A stretch of DNA of 64,000 bases from Deltaproteobacteria bacterium RIFCSPLOWO2_12_FULL_60_19 (GCA_001798595.1 MGSS01000064.1:1-64000); one strand, 5' to 3'; numbered from the stretch's first letter, positions 20,642-33,521 are shown. The notes: generated by a model from the sequence alone, not told the origin. Translations and numbers: made by a program.

Positions 20642-22396
20642 GTGAAGCAGGTTTGGCGCTTATTCCCATTTGTTAAACCCTACCTCTGGCCCTACTTCGT
20701 TTTGTCGTTGGTCTGCATGGCCGCTTTCGGCGGCAGCAGCGCGTTTTTGCCGTATCTCGTGCAAAACGTGTTCGACGACGTCTTCGCGCAAAAGAATGAA
20801 GCGGTGCTGGCCTATCTTCCGGTGGTGATCGTAGTCGTCTTTGTTTTTCGCGGCGCGGTGAACTTCGGCCAGAGCTATCTGAGTTCCTATGTCGGCCACG
20901 GAATCATCAACGACGTCCGAAACGCAATTCACCGGCACTTCCAGACCCTGTCTCTCTCGTTCTTTCATCGCAACCCGACCGGCACGCTGATCTCTCGCGT
21001 CACCAATGACGTGAACCTGGTGCGCGGCGTGCTGACGGATGCCGTGGCCTCTTTTATGCGCGACGCCGTTTCGCTCGCGGCTTTGACGGTCGTGGCGTTT
21101 CTTAAGGACCCGCTGCTCGCCAGCATCGCCTTTGTCGTATTCCCCGCCTCCGTCTATCCCATCATGCGGCTGGGCAAGAAGATCAAGCGCGTCACCAAAC
21201 GCGGGCAGGTGGCGAAAGGACTTTTGACCAGCATCCTGCAAGAGAGCATCCAGGGAAATCGCATCGTCAAGGCGTTCGGGATGGAGAACTATGAAATCGA
21301 GCGCTTTCAGCAAGAGAATCGTCGCGTCTTCAAGCAGGCGCTGCGGAGTAGCCGGACGCAGTCCATGGTGCAGCCGTCGATGGAGCTGCTGGCCTCTTTT
21401 GCGATCGGCGCAGTCGTCTGGTACGGCGGTCACAGCGTCATCGGGGGCGGGCGCAGCCAGGGTGAGTTTATCGCGTTTCTGGTAGCTATGTTTCTCATGT
21501 ATCAGCCCTTCAAGGGGCTCGCCAAGACCTACACGATGATCCATCAGGGTATTGCCGGCGCCGAACGGATATTTGAGGTCCTCGACGCCGACCCGGAGAT
21601 CAAGGACCGGCCGGGAGCGCAGCCGGCGCCGCGCTTTGCGCGGGAGATCGGATTTCACAACGTGAGTTTCGGCTACGCCCGCAAGCTCGTTCTGAGCGAC
21701 ATCGATTTGAAGGTCCGAGCGGGAGAGATGGTCGCGCTGGTCGGCGTCAGCGGAGTCGGCAAGAGCACGCTGGCGGATCTGGTGCCGCGCTTTTACGACG
21801 TGACGGCGGGCAAGATCACGATCGACGGCGTCGATATCCGCGATGTCACCGTGGAATCGTTGCGCTCGCAAATCGGGATCGTGACCCAGCAGACGTTTCT
21901 GTTCAACGATACCGTCAAGAACAACATTGCCTATGGGGATCCGACGAAGGACATGGATCATATCGTCGTCGCCGCCAAGGCCGCGCATGCCCATGAGTTC
22001 ATCGTGGCGATGCCCCAGGGCTACGATACGATGATCGGCGAGCTGGGAGTGAGGCTTTCAGGGGGGCAGCGCCAGCGGCTGGCGATCGCGCGGGCCCTAC
22101 TCAAAGACGCGCCGATTCTGATCCTGGACGAGGCGACGTCGTCGCTGGATACCGAGTCGGAAATGCTGGTGCAGCGAGCTCTGGAGAACCTGATGGTTCG
22201 CCGGACGACCTTGGTGATCGCCCATCGTCTCTCCACGATACGCAATGCGAACCGCATCGTCGTGCTGGTGGATGGGAGAATCGCGGAAGAGGGGACCCAC
22301 GAAGAGCTGCTGGGGCGGGAGTCGGAATACAGGCGGCTCCATACGCTCCAACTGCTGGAGGATGAAGGCGCTCACTCCGGCAAGGTTCTCCATTGA
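20642..22396 (+). CDS. msbA: Lipid A export ATP-binding/permease protein MsbA
   Basis: ABC exporter with TM domain and NBD ([43 protein letters not shown]). Confidence 0.93.
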   Translation: MKQVWRLFPFVKPYLWPYFVLSLVCMAAFGGSSAFLPYLVQNVFDDVFAQKNEAVLAYLPVVIVVVFVFRGAVNFGQSYLSSYVGHGIINDVRNAIHRHFQTLSLSFFHRNPTGTLISRVTNDVNLVRGVLTDAVASFMRDAVSLAALTVVAFLKDPLLASIAFVVFPASVYPIMRLGKKIKRVTKRGQVAKGLLTSILQESIQGNRIVKAFGMENYEIERFQQENRRVFKQALRSSRTQSMVQPSMELLASFAIGAVVWYGGHSVIGGGRSQGEFIAFLVAMFLMYQPFKGLAKTYTMIHQGIAGAERIFEVLDADPEIKDRPGAQPAPRFAREIGFHNVSFGYARKLVLSDIDLKVRAGEMVALVGVSGVGKSTLADLVPRFYDVTAGKITIDGVDIRDVTVESLRSQIGIVTQQTFLFNDTVKNNIAYGDPTKDMDHIVVAAKAAHAHEFIVAMPQGYDTMIGELGVRLSGGQRQRLAIARALLKDAPILILDEATSSLDTESEMLVQRALENLMVRRTTLVIAHRLSTIRNANRIVVLVDGRIAEEGTHEELLGRESEYRRLHTLQLLEDEGAHSGKVLH

Positions 22397-25400: not shown

Positions 25401-26342
25401 ATGGTTTCATTGATCACAGGGGTAGCGGGCTTTGTCGGCTCGCACCTGGCCGAGCGGCTGCTCGGCGAGGGCCATCGGGTGCGCGGCGTCGATATGTTTT
25501 TGGGAAACTATCCTCGCCGCTACAAAGAACGGAATCTCTCCCGCTTCAACGCGCATCCCAGTTTCGAGTTTATCGAATCGGATCTGCTCCGGCTCGACCC
25601 GGCCGGTCTGCTGCGCGATGTTTACTATGTCTTTCACCTGGCCGCACAGCCGGGCGTGCGCGCGAGCTGGGGACAGGAATTTTCCCAATACACGCACCAC
25701 AATATCCTGGTGACTCAGGCGCTGCTCGAAGCGAGCAAGGGGAGCGGCATCAAGAAATTCGTCTACGCGTCGTCGTCGTCCGTCTACGGGGACACCCAGG
25801 ACCTCCCGATGCGCGAGACCGGCATGACCCGGCCGGTCTCGCCCTACGGCGTGAGCAAGCTCGCGGCCGAGCAACTCTGCTACCTTTACTGGAAAGAGTT
25901 CGCCGTGCCCACGGTTTCCCTCCGCTACTTTACCGTTTACGGGCCGCGCCAGCGGCCGGACATGTTTTTTCACATTCTGATGCGCGCGCATCATCGCGGC
26001 GAAGCGATCCCGCTCTACGACGACGGCGGGCAAAGCCGCGACTTCACCTTTTGCGCGGACATCGTCGAGGGAACCTTCGCCGCCGCTCTCTATCCGGGGT
26101 CCGGAGAGGTTTTCAACCTCGGCGGCGGGTCGCGCACGACGATCACCGAGGCGCTGGCGATGGTTGAAGAGATCTCCGGAAAGAAGCTGAAACTCAACCG
26201 GCTGGAGCGCCAGAAGGGCGACGTGCGCCACACCGCGGCCGAGATCGCCGCGGCGCGCTCCAAGCTCGCCTTCAATCCCCGCGTCAAGTTATTCGACGGC
26301 CTCGTCCAAGAGTGGGATTGGATACGGCAGATCGCCGAGTAG
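25401..26342 (+). CDS. NAD-dependent epimerase/dehydratase (extended SDR)
   Basis: LITGVAGFVGSHLAERLL; YASSSSVYG; SPYGVSKLAAE. Confidence 0.92.
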   Translation: MVSLITGVAGFVGSHLAERLLGEGHRVRGVDMFLGNYPRRYKERNLSRFNAHPSFEFIESDLLRLDPAGLLRDVYYVFHLAAQPGVRASWGQEFSQYTHHNILVTQALLEASKGSGIKKFVYASSSSVYGDTQDLPMRETGMTRPVSPYGVSKLAAEQLCYLYWKEFAVPTVSLRYFTVYGPRQRPDMFFHILMRAHHRGEAIPLYDDGGQSRDFTFCADIVEGTFAAALYPGSGEVFNLGGGSRTTITEALAMVEEISGKKLKLNRLERQKGDVRHTAAEIAAARSKLAFNPRVKLFDGLVQEWDWIRQIAE

Positions 26343-26347
26343 CGGCG

Positions 26348-27535
26348 TTATCGCTTTTGCGCCTGAGTCTGCGCCCAGCGGCCTGCAACTTCGAGCGTCG
26401 CTCTCCAAGCCCGCCGCGCCCGCCTAGAAATCGCATACGCCGCCAGTCGCCATAAACTGTTCACCCCGCAGAGACGCTGAAGATATGCGGCAAAGCCGGG
26501 CAGGTTATATTTCGAACCGGCGCCGGGCTCCAGGCGCAGATAGTTGAACCAATGAAGCGGCAGATAACCGAAAGGCTTCGCGCCGTAGTTCCGACTTTTA
26601 TACCGGTATTCGATCCGCTCCAATCTGGAGGTGGGCATATTCTTAAGGCGGCGCAACACCTCGGCGGGGATGGGGGCATCGAAGCGATCCCGCAGATAGG
26701 TGAGGGCCGCTTTGAGTGGGCAGAGCAGACGGCGCTGTTCCGTCTGCGCGAGCAGCCGTTGCCAATCCAGCTCGGATGTCGAGCCGTTGATGATCGCTAG
26801 GGCGTCCGCGATCCAGCGGAACGGCGGCAGCGGATCCCATCGCACGCCGTGCGCGCAGACGTGCAGCAGGTGGTCGGTTGAATTCAACGTGTAACTCGAC
26901 ACCTCATCGATCTTTAGGGTGACCGCTCCGTCCCAGAGGTCATCGTCCGCATCGGGCCGGCAGCATTCTGGGAAGACATGCCAATGAAGATCGAATCTCC
27001 GGCCCGCCGCGTCCCTGAACCCGAACCCGTGGCCGACCGACAGGTAAGTTTCGTGCAGAGTTTCCGGCCAACTGTCCGCGGCCACCCAGCCTGAACCCTG
27101 CAAGAAGCGGACGGCCGTCAACGCCTGCCCTCTCCGGACCAGAACATCGAAGTCAGCCATAGGACGAAGCCCGTAGTCCCGGTAATACAGCAAAACCAAA
27201 GGGACCCCTTTGAGCACCAGCGTGTCGATACCAAGGTCGTGAAGAGAGCGTAGCAGAGCCGCCATGTGGCGAAACGAGATTTGGTTCTTATACCAGGTCA
27301 GACGATAAACACCCTTGAGCTTGTCCACCAGGGGCCCTCGGATTCCGTGCGCGTGAACATTTTTGTAAAGCTGCGGGAGCAAGCGGTACGAGGCGGCATC
27401 GAGCCGGTCCGGATGGACGCTCGATCTCCATTCATCCCAGGCGGCGATCACCTGTGGCCCTCGCAGGAGCGCGGCGCGCAAGAGCAACTCTTGCTCCGGG
27501 GTAGGCCAACAGTCGGTTTTAACCCTTGGGTTCAT
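26348..27535 (-). CDS. Nucleotidyltransferase-family protein (NTP_transf_5-like, PF14907 type)
   Basis: LGIDTLVLKGVPLVLLYYRDYGLRPMADFDVLVRRGQALTAVRFL; FDLHWHVFPEC. Confidence 0.85.
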   Translation of the reverse strand: MNPRVKTDCWPTPEQELLLRAALLRGPQVIAAWDEWRSSVHPDRLDAASYRLLPQLYKNVHAHGIRGPLVDKLKGVYRLTWYKNQISFRHMAALLRSLHDLGIDTLVLKGVPLVLLYYRDYGLRPMADFDVLVRRGQALTAVRFLQGSGWVAADSWPETLHETYLSVGHGFGFRDAAGRRFDLHWHVFPECCRPDADDDLWDGAVTLKIDEVSSYTLNSTDHLLHVCAHGVRWDPLPPFRWIADALAIINGSTSELDWQRLLAQTEQRRLLCPLKAALTYLRDRFDAPIPAEVLRRLKNMPTSRLERIEYRYKSRNYGAKPFGYLPLHWFNYLRLEPGAGSKYNLPGFAAYLQRLCGVNSLWRLAAYAISRRARRAWRATLEVAGRWAQTQAQKR

Positions 27536-29717
27536 CGTCGTTTGCGGAACCTTCTCCACCGTCGCGAGCCGCATTCCGGCGACGATCCAAGGCGGCCTTG
27601 AGAACCCGCACATAGTCCGTCCGCGCCCAGCGCTGCACGATGCCTTGATTGGCGGCATGGAGCCTCCGCCGCAACAGAACGTCCGGCAAGACTATGCTTT
27701 TGAGCCCGATCTGCCGGGCTCTCGCATACCAGTCGATGAATTCTCCCACTTGCCAGGAGACCTCGAACGGTCCGACGCGGGAAAAAGCCGCGCGCGTGAC
27801 GAGCATCGTCGAGCAGGAATATCCCGGCATCGCCACCGTCGGGCAATAGATTTTCTTCTTGGCCTCTTCGGGCAAATCCGGACTGTGAAAATGTCGCACA
27901 TGCCCAAAGGCGATGTCCAATCCGGGGTCTCGGTCAAAAGCGGCCGTCTGAAGAGCGAGTTTATCTTCCGTCCACAGGTCGTCCGCGTCGAGGAACGCGA
28001 GGTAACGGCCCCGCGCCGCGTCGACGCCGCGATTGCGCGCTGCGCCGATTCCGGCATGGGGTTGCAAACAATATCGAACGGCAGAACCGAAACTCTGGGC
28101 CACTTGGCCGCTGTCGTCAGTGGAGCCGTCGTCCACGACGATGATTTCGAGCGGGCGATAGCTCTGCCGCAGCGCGCTCTCGATGGCCTCTCCTAAGTAG
28201 CGCTCGCAGTTGTAGACGGGAATAATCACGCTTACGAGCGTCTCTCCGTCGTTCCGTCTCGCCGAATCGCGCTTCCGTTTGCGGTGCATGGACGATTTTA
28301 CGGCGCGTAAAAACTCTGAATTCCGGGGTTCGGTCCTATAGGATCGGTTGGCGGCGTGGAGACGCCGGTACAGGAGAATCTCAGGTAAGATCGTCATCGG
28401 CATGCCGGCTTCTTTAGCCCGAAAGAACCAGTCCGTGTCGTTGGCGTGCGCGTAACTGGGATCGAAGTCGCCGATCTTCGCAAGAGCTGTTCTCCGGGCA
28501 ACCAGGGTGCTGACGTATAAACCCGCGTGTTCGGTCAATAAAAGATCCTGTGTCATCCGCTGAGGCCGGGGAGTCCCCGGCTCGACGAAGTTCCGCGCTC
28601 TGGCGGTCACATAGCCGGCCTCGGGATGCTTAAGGAGATAACCGATCTGCAGACTGAGCTTGCGGGGCGCCCACAAGTCATCGGCGTCCAGAAAGGCGAG
28701 AAACTCCCCTGTGGCGGCGGCGATGCCGGCATTCTTCGCCGTCCCGTGGCCCTGATTTGCCTGGTGGATATACCGGACCTCCCCGTAGGATTTGGCGACC
28801 GCGGCGGTTCCATCCAGCGAGCCGTCGTCGACCACAATTACCTCCAAGGGGCGGTAATCTTGGGCGAATATGCTGTCGAGGGCAGCGGCCAGGAAACGCT
28901 CGCCGTTGTAGACCGGCACGACAACGCTCACCAGGGGCCTTGCCGGCGGTTTACGCCCTTCGGCGATGGTGCCCGGCCTCGCCGCCCTTTCCCACTGGTA
29001 GCTGCTCACTTGCGGCAGCGATCGCGCGACGCCGTGATTTCGCCTCCGGCGATCCAACGACTGTTTCAGCATTTTTATCAGGTGGGCGTCGTTCACCTCT
29101 TTTCGCTCAGTTATGTTGCGGTCGTGTCGCCGGCAAAAAAGAACGACCTCGTCGCGGATCTCCATAGCGACGCTTCTCTCTCTCGCCCGCATAAACCAAT
29201 CCCAGTCATCGCAGTGCCTGAGCGTCTCATCGAACCGGCCGACTTTCTCGAACACGGATCTCCTGAAAAGGCCACAGCCTAAACTCAACGCCGTCAAAGG
29301 GTCGGAAGAGATCTCGAAACGAAGCCTGCCGTCGACCACGCCGGTCAGGCGCATGTTCTGCCGGCGGCCGAGGACGATTTCCATAGACGGGGCGGCGGCG
29401 AGATGCGCCAGTTGCGCTTTGAGCTTGTCTTCCGACCATAGGTCGTCCGCATCCAGAAAAGCGATCAGCTCTCCGTTCACGGCTTTCAAGCCGCGGTTGC
29501 GGGCCGCCGGCGGCCCGCCGTTTTCCTGAAAAATGTAGCGGACGTTTGGAAAACGTGCGGCCACCGTGGATGTGTCGTCGGTCGAGCCGTCGTCTACGAC
29601 GATGATTTCGAGCGGGTCATAAGCCTGCCGTCGGATGCTCTCGATCGCTTCCGCCAGAAAAGCTGCGCCGTTATAGACGGGGATGATCGCGCTGACGGAA
29701 ACCGGTTTCGTAGGCAT
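27519..29717 (-). CDS. Multidomain glycosyltransferase with three tandem GT2 domains (732 aa)
   Basis: Three repeats of (V/I)SxIIPVYNxxxFLxxAxxSIxxQ..YxPLEIIVVDDGSTDD...FLDADDLW in one uninterrupted ORF. Confidence 0.93.
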   Translation of the reverse strand: MPTKPVSVSAIIPVYNGAAFLAEAIESIRRQAYDPLEIIVVDDGSTDDTSTVAARFPNVRYIFQENGGPPAARNRGLKAVNGELIAFLDADDLWSEDKLKAQLAHLAAAPSMEIVLGRRQNMRLTGVVDGRLRFEISSDPLTALSLGCGLFRRSVFEKVGRFDETLRHCDDWDWFMRARERSVAMEIRDEVVLFCRRHDRNITERKEVNDAHLIKMLKQSLDRRRRNHGVARSLPQVSSYQWERAARPGTIAEGRKPPARPLVSVVVPVYNGERFLAAALDSIFAQDYRPLEVIVVDDGSLDGTAAVAKSYGEVRYIHQANQGHGTAKNAGIAAATGEFLAFLDADDLWAPRKLSLQIGYLLKHPEAGYVTARARNFVEPGTPRPQRMTQDLLLTEHAGLYVSTLVARRTALAKIGDFDPSYAHANDTDWFFRAKEAGMPMTILPEILLYRRLHAANRSYRTEPRNSEFLRAVKSSMHRKRKRDSARRNDGETLVSVIIPVYNCERYLGEAIESALRQSYRPLEIIVVDDGSTDDSGQVAQSFGSAVRYCLQPHAGIGAARNRGVDAARGRYLAFLDADDLWTEDKLALQTAAFDRDPGLDIAFGHVRHFHSPDLPEEAKKKIYCPTVAMPGYSCSTMLVTRAAFSRVGPFEVSWQVGEFIDWYARARQIGLKSIVLPDVLLRRRLHAANQGIVQRWARTDYVRVLKAALDRRRNAARDGGEGSANDDEPKG

Positions 29718-29720
29718 CGC

Positions 29721-30800
29721 CTAACTCCGAGCCAGTAACCCGAGGATGATGTCGGGCATTTTGCCCACGTCGGTTCCGAGCTCCAAGTGATAACAAGGGA
29801 CCTGCTTCACGACCGCGGCCATCGCCGCCATCGCCGCATCTCCCGCGCCCGATAGCTGAAAGAGCGTGCTCGGCGCGAGGGCCTTGAGCGCGGCGGCGGC
29901 CGACGCCGGCTTCCATGCGGTCTCCCGATTATCCGTGATGCTCGGCAGGAGAATCGCGCGAACCGGAAAGCCGGACGCGATGTTTTCCGGGTAAAGTTTG
30001 CGCAGAAACAAGAGCGCTTTTTCCGAACGAAGGCGATCCGCATTGCTGATGGCCGGTGCGAGATGCGGAAATCTCCGTATGCCGCCCGCGTCCAACTTGG
30101 CCGAGTTGTAAAGACTATAAGCGTGCGGGGAAGGCTCTTGGGCCAGCAAGCAATAGTCGTCACTGACGTAGAGCAGCTTCGAGCCGAGGCAGGCGAGGGT
30201 CGTGGTCGACTTGCCGGAACCGCCTTTGCCGACCAACAGCACGCCGCCCGCAGACGTTCCGATTGCGCCCGCATGGACCAACTGGCGTCCGTGGTCGCGC
30301 ATCCACCAATGGAGAATCGCTCGCAGCGGCGCGCCGCTTTCATAGTAGGGCAGGCGGCGCGCGTCACGGACCCAGAAAAACGCCAGATCGCGCTCCTTAT
30401 CGAGAATGCTGAGAGCATCGGCCCCGATATGGAATGCGGTCTCGATCCGTCGGTCAGAATAGCCGCACACCTCGCCGCGCGCGATATAGTCGCCCGTAGA
30501 CCAGGGAGGCGAGGGCATTTTCGTTCCGGTTGAGGCGCTGTCCCACAGGCAGACGGTCAAGGCGGACGGCGAGCCGGGCGGAATCGCCAGGTGTCCCAGC
30601 GCCGGCGTGATGAGCGGCAAAAGAGCGGGGCTGGCGAAGCGGAGACGAACGATGTAGCCGCCGATCCTGTAGAATCGGTCTATCGGCTCTCCGGCTGCCG
30701 CCTCGGCGCGCTGAAAGGTTTGAGAGACGGTTTCAAGAAAGGCGAGGGCCGCGTCCCCGGAAGTCTCGGGAGCGACGGACGGCACTACGGCGCTAGTCAT
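29721..30800 (-). CDS. HPr kinase-related kinase (HprK-rel-A type)
   Basis: P-loop GKGGSGKSTTTLACL; position between PqqD-like and glycosyltransferase genes. Confidence 0.8.
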   Translation of the reverse strand: MTSAVVPSVAPETSGDAALAFLETVSQTFQRAEAAAGEPIDRFYRIGGYIVRLRFASPALLPLITPALGHLAIPPGSPSALTVCLWDSASTGTKMPSPPWSTGDYIARGEVCGYSDRRIETAFHIGADALSILDKERDLAFFWVRDARRLPYYESGAPLRAILHWWMRDHGRQLVHAGAIGTSAGGVLLVGKGGSGKSTTTLACLGSKLLYVSDDYCLLAQEPSPHAYSLYNSAKLDAGGIRRFPHLAPAISNADRLRSEKALLFLRKLYPENIASGFPVRAILLPSITDNRETAWKPASAAAALKALAPSTLFQLSGAGDAAMAAMAAVVKQVPCYHLELGTDVGKMPDIILGLLARS

Positions 30801-31260
30801 CGTCCTTGGGAGAGGTCGGTTTAGTGTTGGGCCAGCCCGTTTCGTCGACCTCGTGAATCGGATCGAGCAGGATCAGCTCCTGCATGTCGGTAAATTTCTC
30901 CAGGTGAGGCGGCTCGAAAGCGGTTTTTTGGCTTGCAGGCGCCGCAGGCGCGCGCGTTTCCGCCTGGCCTCCCGGTTCCTTCGCTCCGTCGGCGACGATC
31001 AGATTTTCCAGCTCCAGTTCGGCGATCAAGCGCTGGATCCCGTCTTCGATCTCCGAGCGGCTACCCTCGTAACGGCCGGCGATGGCCTCGACAATTTTGC
31101 CGAGCGCGGCGCCTGCTCCAATGAACCCCCACACGTCGGCCCCCGCCTTGCTCAGACTGTAATAGCTGCCCGTCTCGAAGTTGATGATCACCACTTCGTC
31201 GTCGAAAGCCTCATCGATGACTTTAGGCCGGTTGATTCGAAAACGTCTGGACGACGCCAT
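30793..31260 (-). CDS. PqqD-family protein with C-terminal peptide-like extension
   Basis: Residues 1-91 PqqD-like (EVVIINFETGSYYSLSKAGADVWGFI...LIAELELENLIV); residues 114-155 FEPPHLEKFTDMQELILLDPIHEVDETGWPNTKPTSPKDDD. Confidence 0.85.
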   Translation of the reverse strand: MASSRRFRINRPKVIDEAFDDEVVIINFETGSYYSLSKAGADVWGFIGAGAALGKIVEAIAGRYEGSRSEIEDGIQRLIAELELENLIVADGAKEPGGQAETRAPAAPASQKTAFEPPHLEKFTDMQELILLDPIHEVDETGWPNTKPTSPKDDD

Positions 31261-31398: not shown

Positions 31399-31569
31399 AT
31401 GTCGATCAGTCAAGAGTTGTTGGAGATTCTGGCCTGCCCGAAATGCAAAGGCGAGATCCATCTGAACGCGTCGGCAAGCGGACTTGTCTGCGATGCCTGT
31501 CGCCTGGTCTATCCGATCCGGGATGACATCCCCGTCATGCTCATCGACGAAGCGACCAAACTGGATTGA
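31399..31569 (+). CDS. Trm112-family zinc-ribbon protein (56 aa)
   Basis: [56 protein letters not shown]; absent from supplied ORF track. Confidence 0.9.
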
Positions 31570-31652: not shown

Positions 31653-32747
31653 ATGGCCGAGAGTGAAAAGATTCTTTTGGTTCAAACCAGCTTTCTCGGC
31701 GATCTGATCTTGACCACTCCGCTCCTCGCCGAAATTCGCCGCCGTTTCCCCCGCGCGCTGATCTCCGTCTTGTGCCGCCGCGAGTTAAGGGACGTTTTGG
31801 CGGGCGATCCGGAGATTCACGAAGTCATGACCTACGACAAGCGGGGCCCTCGCGGCGGATGGACCGGCTTGTGGCGCATGGCGCAAGAGCTCCGCGCGCG
31901 AGGCTTCGACATGGCTTTGTCGGTCCATAAGTCGCTGCGCACGGCGTTGCTGCTCTTCTTGGCCGGGATTCCGCTTCGCGTCGGCTTTCGACAGAGCGCC
32001 GGGTGGTTTCTTTATCACCGGAGGCCGAGGCGGGCCGCCGCGCGCCACGACGTCGAACGGAGCCTGTCGCTCCTCAGCGCCGTCGAGATCGATCCGCGGA
32101 CGACGAAACCCGCGCTGCGCGTCGAAGTGAGCGCGCAGGTTCGGGCCGATGTCGAGCGAATATTTCGCGCTTGCGGGATCCGCGGCGACGGAATTATTTT
32201 CGGCGTCAACCCCGGCTCGGTCTGGGCGACCAAGCGATGGACGCCCGAGGGCTACGCGGCGCTGATCGGCCGGTTGCGCGAGAGTTACGGCGGCGAGGTC
32301 CTGCTGTTCGGCGGTCCCGACGATCGCGAGGTGGTCGAGCGAATTCTCGATCTCTCGAATCACGGGGGCACGAGCCTCGTAGGGAAAATCGGTCTCCGCG
32401 AGCTTGCCGGGGCCATTGAGCGCTGCCGTGTCTTTATCACCAATGACAGCGGGCCGATGCATGTCGCAGTTGCGCGCGGCGTTCCCACGGCCGCGATCTT
32501 CTGCGCGACAACTCGGGAGCTGGGGTTTTATCCTTACAGCTCCAATGCGGTGGTCATCGAGAAGGCGTTGTCGTGCCGCCCCTGTGCGCCTCACGGCGGG
32601 CTCAGATGCCCGCTCGGGACCGAGGACTGCATGCGTTTGATCTCCGCCGCCGACGTGATGCGCGGCGTGGAGCTCTTGTTGAACCGCGATCGCCGCCGGG
32701 ATGCCGGGGGAGTCGATTCCTGTTTTCCCCTGACTCTCGGCGTCTAG
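31653..32747 (+). CDS. waaF: Glycosyltransferase family 9, heptosyltransferase II-like
   Basis: ILLVQTSFLGDLILTTPLLAEIRRRFP; NPGSVWATKRWTPEGYAALI; CRPCAPHGGLRCPLGTEDCM. Confidence 0.9.
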   Translation: MAESEKILLVQTSFLGDLILTTPLLAEIRRRFPRALISVLCRRELRDVLAGDPEIHEVMTYDKRGPRGGWTGLWRMAQELRARGFDMALSVHKSLRTALLLFLAGIPLRVGFRQSAGWFLYHRRPRRAAARHDVERSLSLLSAVEIDPRTTKPALRVEVSAQVRADVERIFRACGIRGDGIIFGVNPGSVWATKRWTPEGYAALIGRLRESYGGEVLLFGGPDDREVVERILDLSNHGGTSLVGKIGLRELAGAIERCRVFITNDSGPMHVAVARGVPTAAIFCATTRELGFYPYSSNAVVIEKALSCRPCAPHGGLRCPLGTEDCMRLISAADVMRGVELLLNRDRRRDAGGVDSCFPLTLGV

Positions 32748-32756
32748 TTGGTTCTC

Positions 32757-33521
32757 ATGCCCACCGTCGGCGTCGTTATTTTCAGCACGGAGAGCATGAA
32801 GCATCTGGCCGAGTGCTTGAACAGCGTGGCCTGGGCGGATGAGATTTTGATGCTTCACGCCGGCGCGCCGCCGCCGGAGCTTCCAACGATCGCGGGCCGG
32901 CCGATCAAGTTAAAGACGGTGGATTCTCTGGTCGAGGCCGCCGCCCCGTGCGAGGAGATCGACAGCGAGTGGGTGCTGCGTTTGTGGGGCGAGGAGCGCG
33001 TTGAGCCGGAGCTCAAGGAGGAGTTGCAGGCATTGCGCCAAGGCGGGTTAAAGGACGGCGGATCGACTTATCGGGTCCCGATTCGCTCTTATCTCCTGGG
33101 CGGATGGGCGATAGGGAGCGTCTCCGGTGCGAGCCCCGCCCTGCGGCTCTACCAAAAGAGCGTCGGCCCCGGAGTCGGCTCGCGGATCAAGACCGAAGAG
33201 GCAAGAGTTTTGCGGCGCGGCTGGATCGAAGACTATTCCTGCTCGGAGCTGAGTCGCGCGGTCGATTACGTCCAGCTTCTCAGCGACTTTTGGGCGCGGC
33301 GGTCGGGCCTCAGGAAGGCGCCGCCCGGCGCGATGCGGGCGGCGCTTGGTTCGCTGCGGGTTTTTTTTCGGATACTCGTTGCCAACGGAATATTTTTTCG
33401 CGGGCTGGCGGGCGTGGCGTTAGCGGCGCTGGCCGGCTATGCGGTGCTGCTGTCGGAGGCGAAATTGTGGGAAGCGAAATACGCGGGGGCGCGGGAAAGC
33501 GCGCCTAAGCAGGCGCCATGA
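32757..33521 (+). CDS. WaaE/KdtX-like GT2-fold protein with degenerate active-site motifs
   Basis: VGVVIFSTESMKHLAECLNSVAWADEILML; DSGSTDRT absent; LDADE position reads LWGEE; WaaE-like C-terminus. Confidence 0.65.
   Translation: MPTVGVVIFSTESMKHLAECLNSVAWADEILMLHAGAPPPELPTIAGRPIKLKTVDSLVEAAAPCEEIDSEWVLRLWGEERVEPELKEELQALRQGGLKDGGSTYRVPIRSYLLGGWAIGSVSGASPALRLYQKSVGPGVGSRIKTEEARVLRRGWIEDYSCSELSRAVDYVQLLSDFWARRSGLRKAPPGAMRAALGSLRVFFRILVANGIFFRGLAGVALAALAGYAVLLSEAKLWEAKYAGARESAPKQAP

Follow-up and report, generated by a model that had tools for sequence, protein, structure and literature searches.

A four-gene cassette in a stretch of DNA from Deltaproteobacteria bacterium RIFCSPLOWO2_12_FULL_60_19 (GCA_001798595.1 MGSS01000064.1:1-64000; all 64,000 nt were analysed and are called the window) encodes a recognition element of ribosomally synthesized and post-translationally modified peptides (RiPP recognition element, RRE), an HprK-like kinase, a protein with three family 2 glycosyltransferase (GT2) domains and an NTP_transf_5 protein. 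It is apparently a widespread variant of RRE-kinase-NTP_transf_5 systems that was previously unnamed and undescribed, and no description of a tailed RRE together with kinase, GT2 and NTP_transf_5 was found in the open-licence literature. Its defining new feature is an RRE with a fused leader-like tail, accompanied by near-obligate GT2s, and the system probably places phosphate and sugars onto a cell-surface or exported molecule. About half of the known RiPP pathways have the RRE as common adaptor, which normally binds a separate precursor (PMC13381572). Here a natural RRE and leader share one chain that has remained almost unchanged over more than 12 phyla in the company of a kinase, a PsmN-type transferase and GT2s. 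A fused-leader RRE among glycan enzymes suggests that RiPP recognition was co-opted for glycan assembly, and would give a role to the widespread "uncharacterised nucleotidyltransferase" (PF14907) and the HprK-like genes of polysaccharide loci.

The specific reading put forward, which has about an even chance of being correct, is an RRE-guided phosphoglycosylation cassette in which RRE and recognition peptide form one chain. With its tail docked, the RRE would act as a permanently loaded recognition complex and bring in the kinase, which would phosphorylate an acceptor. The NTP_transf_5 protein, a relative of PsmN and other NTP proteins from paeninodin-type clusters, would then put a sugar on the phosphate, the GT2s would lengthen the sugar chain and the product would be exported or joined to a surface polysaccharide. 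The acceptor may be another molecule or else the tail itself, as a tethered precursor that is never cleaved; no Ser or Thr of the tail is universal.

Conservation of the gene set

A search of the RRE alignment against 85,462 species genomes gave 155 confirmed relatives. From these, 80 loci were kept and annotated with home-made hidden Markov models (HMMs); members were counted on the 55 loci with at least 8 kb of downstream sequence, and 150 genomes of the window's class were used for a class comparison. The kept loci are labelled Chloroflexota, Cyanobacteria, Nitrospirota, Acidobacteria, Ignavibacteria, Bacteroidota, Planctomycetes, Actinobacteria, Proteobacteria, Bacillota, Gemmatimonadota, Lentisphaerae and others, and the usual order, RRE - kinase - GT2s - NTP_transf_5, recurs in more than 12 labelled phyla. 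Kinase and GT2 genes are each present in 54 of the 55 loci, NTP_transf_5 in 45 and all three in 45. The number of GT2 domains per locus ranges from 1 to 7 where they are present. An ABC (ATP-binding cassette) exporter accompanies the set in 24/55 loci; the sole msbA-like gene of the window is the lipopolysaccharide (LPS) one at 20642-22396. A complete set is carried by the mobilizable plasmid pCRI9333.04 of Crinalium epipsammum PCC 9333.

Run independently of the RRE-based retrieval, the kinase profile has strong matches in 12 of the 150 class genomes, exactly those encoding the full-length RRE-tail protein, and PF14907 occurs in 73 of the 150, including all 12. The distance matrices of RRE and kinase are correlated (Mantel rho 0.53, a value reached by 0/500 permutations). 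Kinase and GT2 are fused in 11 loci, and two relatives encode RRE and HprK-like kinase in one open reading frame (ORF) beside NTP_transf_5 (L163 832-2067, plus strand; L166 1495-3282, minus strand). The conserved set and order, the identical genome distribution of RRE-tail and kinase, the correlated distances and the fusions tying the parts together all argue for a phosphoglycosylation cassette. A prediction made earlier for this DNA (the original prediction) had singled out the combination of these genes with a three-domain GT2 and named conserved co-occurrence as a check; the co-occurrence is strongly borne out by these counts, and the fusions show multi-GT2 content to be a real part of the system. 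As GT2s are usually separate tandem genes in other loci, the three-domain protein of the window is a fusion of such genes.

Two of the loci call for separate comment. L100, deposited as Klebsiella pneumoniae (CAMBZJ010000003.1), has the same coordinates as G053 from the window's class, and its species label looks wrong. In a Bacillota metagenome-assembled genome (L081 4847-7970, plus strand) a second RRE, a B2-like ORF, a kinase and NTP_transf_5 lie ~2-5 kb from the tailed-RRE system, a pairing that resembles the LPP/paeninodin pairs in Paenibacillus.

Domain and fold identities

The original prediction had described four packed minus-strand genes opposing plus-strand LPS genes, and the ORFs were confirmed. 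Its PqqD and NTP_transf_5 calls hold with PF05402 at 43.1 bits (gathering score 23.4) and PF14907 at 137 bits (gathering score 31.2), as does the assignment of three GT2 domains to one protein, PF00535 exceeding its threshold in three stretches. Its HprK-like kinase is right in kind and wrong in NCBIfam's sense, judged by profile and modelled fold. The protein falls below the single-sequence thresholds (PF07475, 15.8 against 33.3 bits, E=0.01; TIGR04352, 37.4 against 200 bits). The call is right in kind because the family profile matches the solved HPr kinases 1jb1/1kkl at E=3e-7, the AlphaFold model (pLDDT, the model's confidence score, 95) matches phosphoenolpyruvate (PEP) carboxykinases, and H176, the P-loop, D214-D215 and K261 are conserved across the family. 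PEP carboxykinases are fold relatives of HPr kinase. For the NTP_transf_5 family profile no solved structural relative was found by sequence.

The AlphaFold2 fold of the RRE comes closest to two solved lasso B1 structures, TbiB1 with the TbiA leader and a second protein with its own leader. This match is that of a B1-type RRE as found in paeninodin-type lasso systems, and the PqqD equivalog TIGR03859 scores 12.1 bits against a cut-off of 46.

The RRE tail

Beyond a variable linker the RRE protein ends in a tail of the form [FYW]xxPxLxKYTDMQDLLLLDPIHEVDxxGWP. F115, P118, L120, D125, M126, D133, P134, I135, H136, V138, G142, W143 and P144 are near-invariant in 86 homologues and, compared column by column, the tail residues are more conserved than the RRE domain itself; as columns 125-133 served as the retrieval pattern, unbiased evidence of conservation comes from the other columns only. 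A subgroup carries the related tail DMxxLLALDPPxPG.

The F-x-x-P-x-L element is near the RRE-binding motif of lasso and PQQ (pyrroloquinoline quinone) leaders, [YW]xxPx[L..] (PMC13381572). In the AlphaFold2 model residues 111-120 have a pLDDT of 96 and residues 131-155 one of 54-62. The leader-like motif is thus predicted to dock in the leader groove of its own RRE with the remaining tail exposed, because an undocked segment past a flexible linker would not score 96. The annotated leader of a genuine Priestia paeninodin precursor, WKKPELEVLDV, falls with WKKPELEVLDVNKTM in the same register as FEPPHLEKFTDM; its cluster encodes the RRE separately and without a tail, and the cassette's kinase model recognises its kinase. 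That kinase, encoded on a Priestia plasmid (WP_243495797.1; L190 5000-5935, plus strand), is annotated as an "aldolase" and matches the model at E=4e-16. The conservation of the tail, its modelled docking, the resemblance to TbiB1 with bound leader and the shared register with the paeninodin leader all point to a recognition peptide held in cis.

Searches for a separate precursor came back empty. In the fetched loci a regular expression, clustering of small ORFs and a tail HMM gave antisense or frame shadows or nothing, no small ORF recurred beside the system in 85 loci, and no free copy of the tail was seen. A tail search of the 150 whole genomes returned RRE tails only, with that of the window recovered at 30817-30918, and the window cassette has no room for a separate precursor gene. 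A separate precursor peptide was rejected on these grounds. Processing enzymes are likewise missing. No SpI (SipW-like) leader peptidase occurs in the tailed-RRE loci, an S24/S26-like gene being present only in a syntenic variant from G017. B2 peptidase is absent from the cassette, its two matches in other loci belonging to separate RREs, and macrolactam cyclase is absent from the four genes and is not a recurrent neighbour family.

RRE-precursor-like fusions do occur in related clusters. In G096 (L169 8291-8755, minus strand) a single ORF joins an RRE to a canonical lasso-type leader and core (YAPPRLVAYASVAQLTVGSEKSG...), next to a PF13471 B2 peptidase, an HprK-like kinase, NTP_transf_5 and a Wzc-like gene; no cyclase was found among the fetched neighbours. 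This fusion beside a B2 peptidase, together with the failure to find a separate tail peptide or precursor, favours an RRE that carries its own recognition peptide.

Relation to known systems

HprK-like kinases of the paeninodin type phosphorylate a Ser of the precursor, and in pseudomycoidin the addition of one or two hexoses to that phosphate depends on PsmN, annotated as a nucleotidyltransferase (PMC9266682). LPP clusters, located in polysaccharide loci and composed of RRE, kinase, NTP transferase and exporter, yield polyphosphorylated linear peptides (PMC13381572, 2026). That kinase and NTP transferase partners phosphorylate and glycosylate pseudomycoidin (PMC9266682) and that kinases polyphosphorylate LPP precursors (PMC13381572) supports the assignment of phosphate and sugar transfer to the window's enzymes.

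The cassette resembles the tailoring parts of both systems and is a member of neither, since it has no cyclase, B2, SpI or separate precursor. With paeninodin-type lasso tailoring (PadeK/ThcoK/PsmK, PsmN, B1 RRE) it shares a homologous RRE, the His-Lys-Asp-Asp residues of the kinase, an NTP_transf_5-type protein, found near RRE and kinase in Paenibacillus, and a leader motif of the same register; it differs in lacking cyclase, B2 and separate precursor, in the fusion of the leader-like peptide to the RRE and in its near-fixed GT2s. The joint presence of RRE, HprK-like kinase and NTP transferase is shared with LPP, as are the polysaccharide-locus setting and the lack of a cyclase; the MsbA-like exporter of LPP would have its counterpart in the ABC exporter of 24/55 long-flank loci, the window itself having only the LPS msbA-like gene. 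LPP itself needs the SpI peptidase LppS and a separate LppA with YxxPxVLxHQxIxFETxxS, is known mainly from Bacillota and is described with neither a fused tail nor obligate GT2s (PMC13381572).

HPr-rel-A clusters (TIGR04352/TIGR04353), to which the original prediction had likened the cassette, are uncharacterised and also have a PqqD-like protein, an HprK-related kinase and a nucleotidyltransferase as neighbours. Membership was rejected on the low TIGR04352 score, the lack of any TIGR04353 match to the window RRE at E<=1 and the make-up of the HPr-rel-A loci examined, which contain kinase and NTP_transf_5 but neither GT2 nor tailed RRE. The broader idea of a peptide or protein modification coupled to glycan assembly is supported by the conserved gene set, although it overlooked the leader-like tail. 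A likeness to PQQ and mycofactocin systems lies in the PqqD-fold chaperone, in a peptide that is conserved rather than variable and, for mycofactocin, in a GT2 (MftF); the cassette differs from them in its lack of a radical SAM (S-adenosylmethionine) partner and in its low TIGR03859 score.

Weighing the alternatives

Several points weigh against an RRE-guided phosphoglycosylation cassette. Docking in cis is predicted by a single monomer model, PsmN activity is established in one system only and LppN was without activity in a heterologous host (PMC13381572). Strict conservation sets the tail apart from most RiPP cores, and in the tailed-RRE loci no leader peptidase forms part of the system. Ser/Thr124 is found in 71/86 homologues, no tail Ser/Thr is universal, and the tail of a paralogue in the window's own genome (L017) has no Ser or Thr after residue 121 while its kinase is intact. 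As a universal phosphosite Thr/Ser124 was ruled out: it is missing from 15/86 homologues, whose kinases have their catalytic residues in place. Since there is neither a universal hydroxyl nor a peptidase, modification of the tail would fall on a different residue or be confined to most of the members; otherwise the tail would be an adaptor for a separate acceptor.

The last of these options can be taken further, to an adaptor whose tail is a docking motif that keeps kinase, NTP_transf_5 and GT2s together, the substrate being a separate glycan, lipid or protein (e.g., the LPS core) and the RRE staying unmodified. This is possible, if on the doubtful side. In the exposed tail it is hydrophobic and acidic residues, His and Trp that are conserved, rather than Ser/Thr, and a tail devoid of Ser/Thr coexists with an intact kinase. 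The fold of the kinase is close to that of PEP carboxykinase, an enzyme with a small-molecule substrate, and the number and type of glycosyltransferases vary as RRE, kinase and NTP_transf_5 stay constant. An adaptor of this kind fits poorly with the modelled placement of the leader-like motif in the RRE groove, the arrangement expected of a precursor, and with the RRE-precursor-like fusion that adjoins a leader peptidase in G096.

At the opposite end, the tail may be a true precursor, a leader and core fused to the RRE and never cleaved, serving as protein-bound carrier for a phosphate-linked glycan that is handed to the cell surface. This is rather unlikely; if true, the uncleaved RRE tail would be a tethered RiPP that serves as a glycan primer.

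A regulatory module, in which RRE and kinase sense the metabolic state like HPr kinase and control polysaccharide synthesis, the phosphorylated target being a glycosyltransferase or another protein, would suit the HPrK family fold and the LPS/glycan locus setting. It is improbable in view of the near-fixed NTP_transf_5 and GT2 members with their gene fusions, and of related kinases that are known peptide-tailoring enzymes. Ordinary HPr-rel-A or degenerate paeninodin/LPP tailoring genes whose GT2 neighbours are unrelated and whose RRE tail is inert would account for the same three enzyme families as in those sets and are very improbable, given scores far under TIGR04352/TIGR04353, HPr-rel-A type loci without tailed RRE or GT2 and a tail conserved across more than 12 phyla.

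Gene layout and genomic setting

The genes of the cassette (Table 1) are tightly packed, with an 8 b overlap between RRE and kinase, a 3 b gap between kinase and GT2 and a 17 b overlap between GT2 and NTP_transf_5. The mechanical ORF start of the NTP_transf_5 gene is at 27658; the Met at 27535 agrees with the start of its G017 homologue.

Table 1. Features of the cassette and its borders (window coordinates)
Feature	Coordinates	Strand	Basis or detail
RRE-tail protein, 155 aa	30793..31260	-	PqqD-fold RRE domain aa 22-88, variable linker aa ~93-113, conserved tail
C-terminal tail aa 115-148, FEPPHLEKFTDMQELILLDPIHEVDETGWPNTKP	30817..30918	-	Conservation in 86 homologues, AlphaFold2 model, tail-only search
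Tail parts: leader-like motif F115-P118-L120 and conserved DMxxLxLxDPIHEVxxxGWP	within 30817..30918	-	
HPrK/PEP carboxykinase-fold kinase, 359 aa	29721..30800	-	H176, P-loop 191-198, D214 D215, K261
Three tandem GT2 domains in one 732-aa protein	27519..29717	-	PF00535, three stretches
NTP_transf_5 protein, 395 aa	26348..27535	-	PF14907; conserved LKG...R...DxD nucleotidyltransferase signature
NAD-dependent sugar epimerase/dehydratase, left border of insertion site	25401..26342	+	PF01370
Heptosyltransferase (GT9), right border of insertion site	31653..32747	+	PF01075, TIGR02195 above cut-off
Trm112-like zinc-ribbon-type ORF, 56 aa, outside cassette	31399..31569	+	Family assigned by eye

The cassette is inserted in an LPS-core locus between the plus-strand epimerase and heptosyltransferase genes. 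The order of the locus is lpxB-msbA-waaA-lpxK-gmhB-epimerase-[cassette]-heptosyltransferase, several of these names being family-level assignments. In the same-family G013, G023, G001 and G012 the site is empty and the epimerase is directly followed by the heptosyltransferase. In G017 the same place is taken, on the same strand, by an alternative cassette (L022 4970-10262, minus strand) with an RRE of its own, a peptidase like S24/S26, a kinase like HprK, a double-GT4 protein and an NTP_transf_5 protein that shares 55% identity with the one in the window. Empty sites in relatives and this alternative cassette thus mark the insertion site, on comparison of the loci, as a hot spot for related cassettes. 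The RRE of G017 closes with a leader-like motif, YEAPRLTKFGELEKLILSGE, that no core follows. Base composition gave no sign of foreign origin or recent transfer (GC 0.60-0.63 for the cassette, 0.60 for the window). A diverged second copy of the system lies elsewhere in the window's own genome (L017), in the order kinase-GT2 fusion, GT2, GT2, RRE.

The Trm112-like ORF sits between the RRE and heptosyltransferase genes. Downstream of the latter, 32748-33521 (plus strand) encodes a 257-aa protein that has no Pfam or NCBIfam match and is kept in the LPS locus of several same-family genomes.

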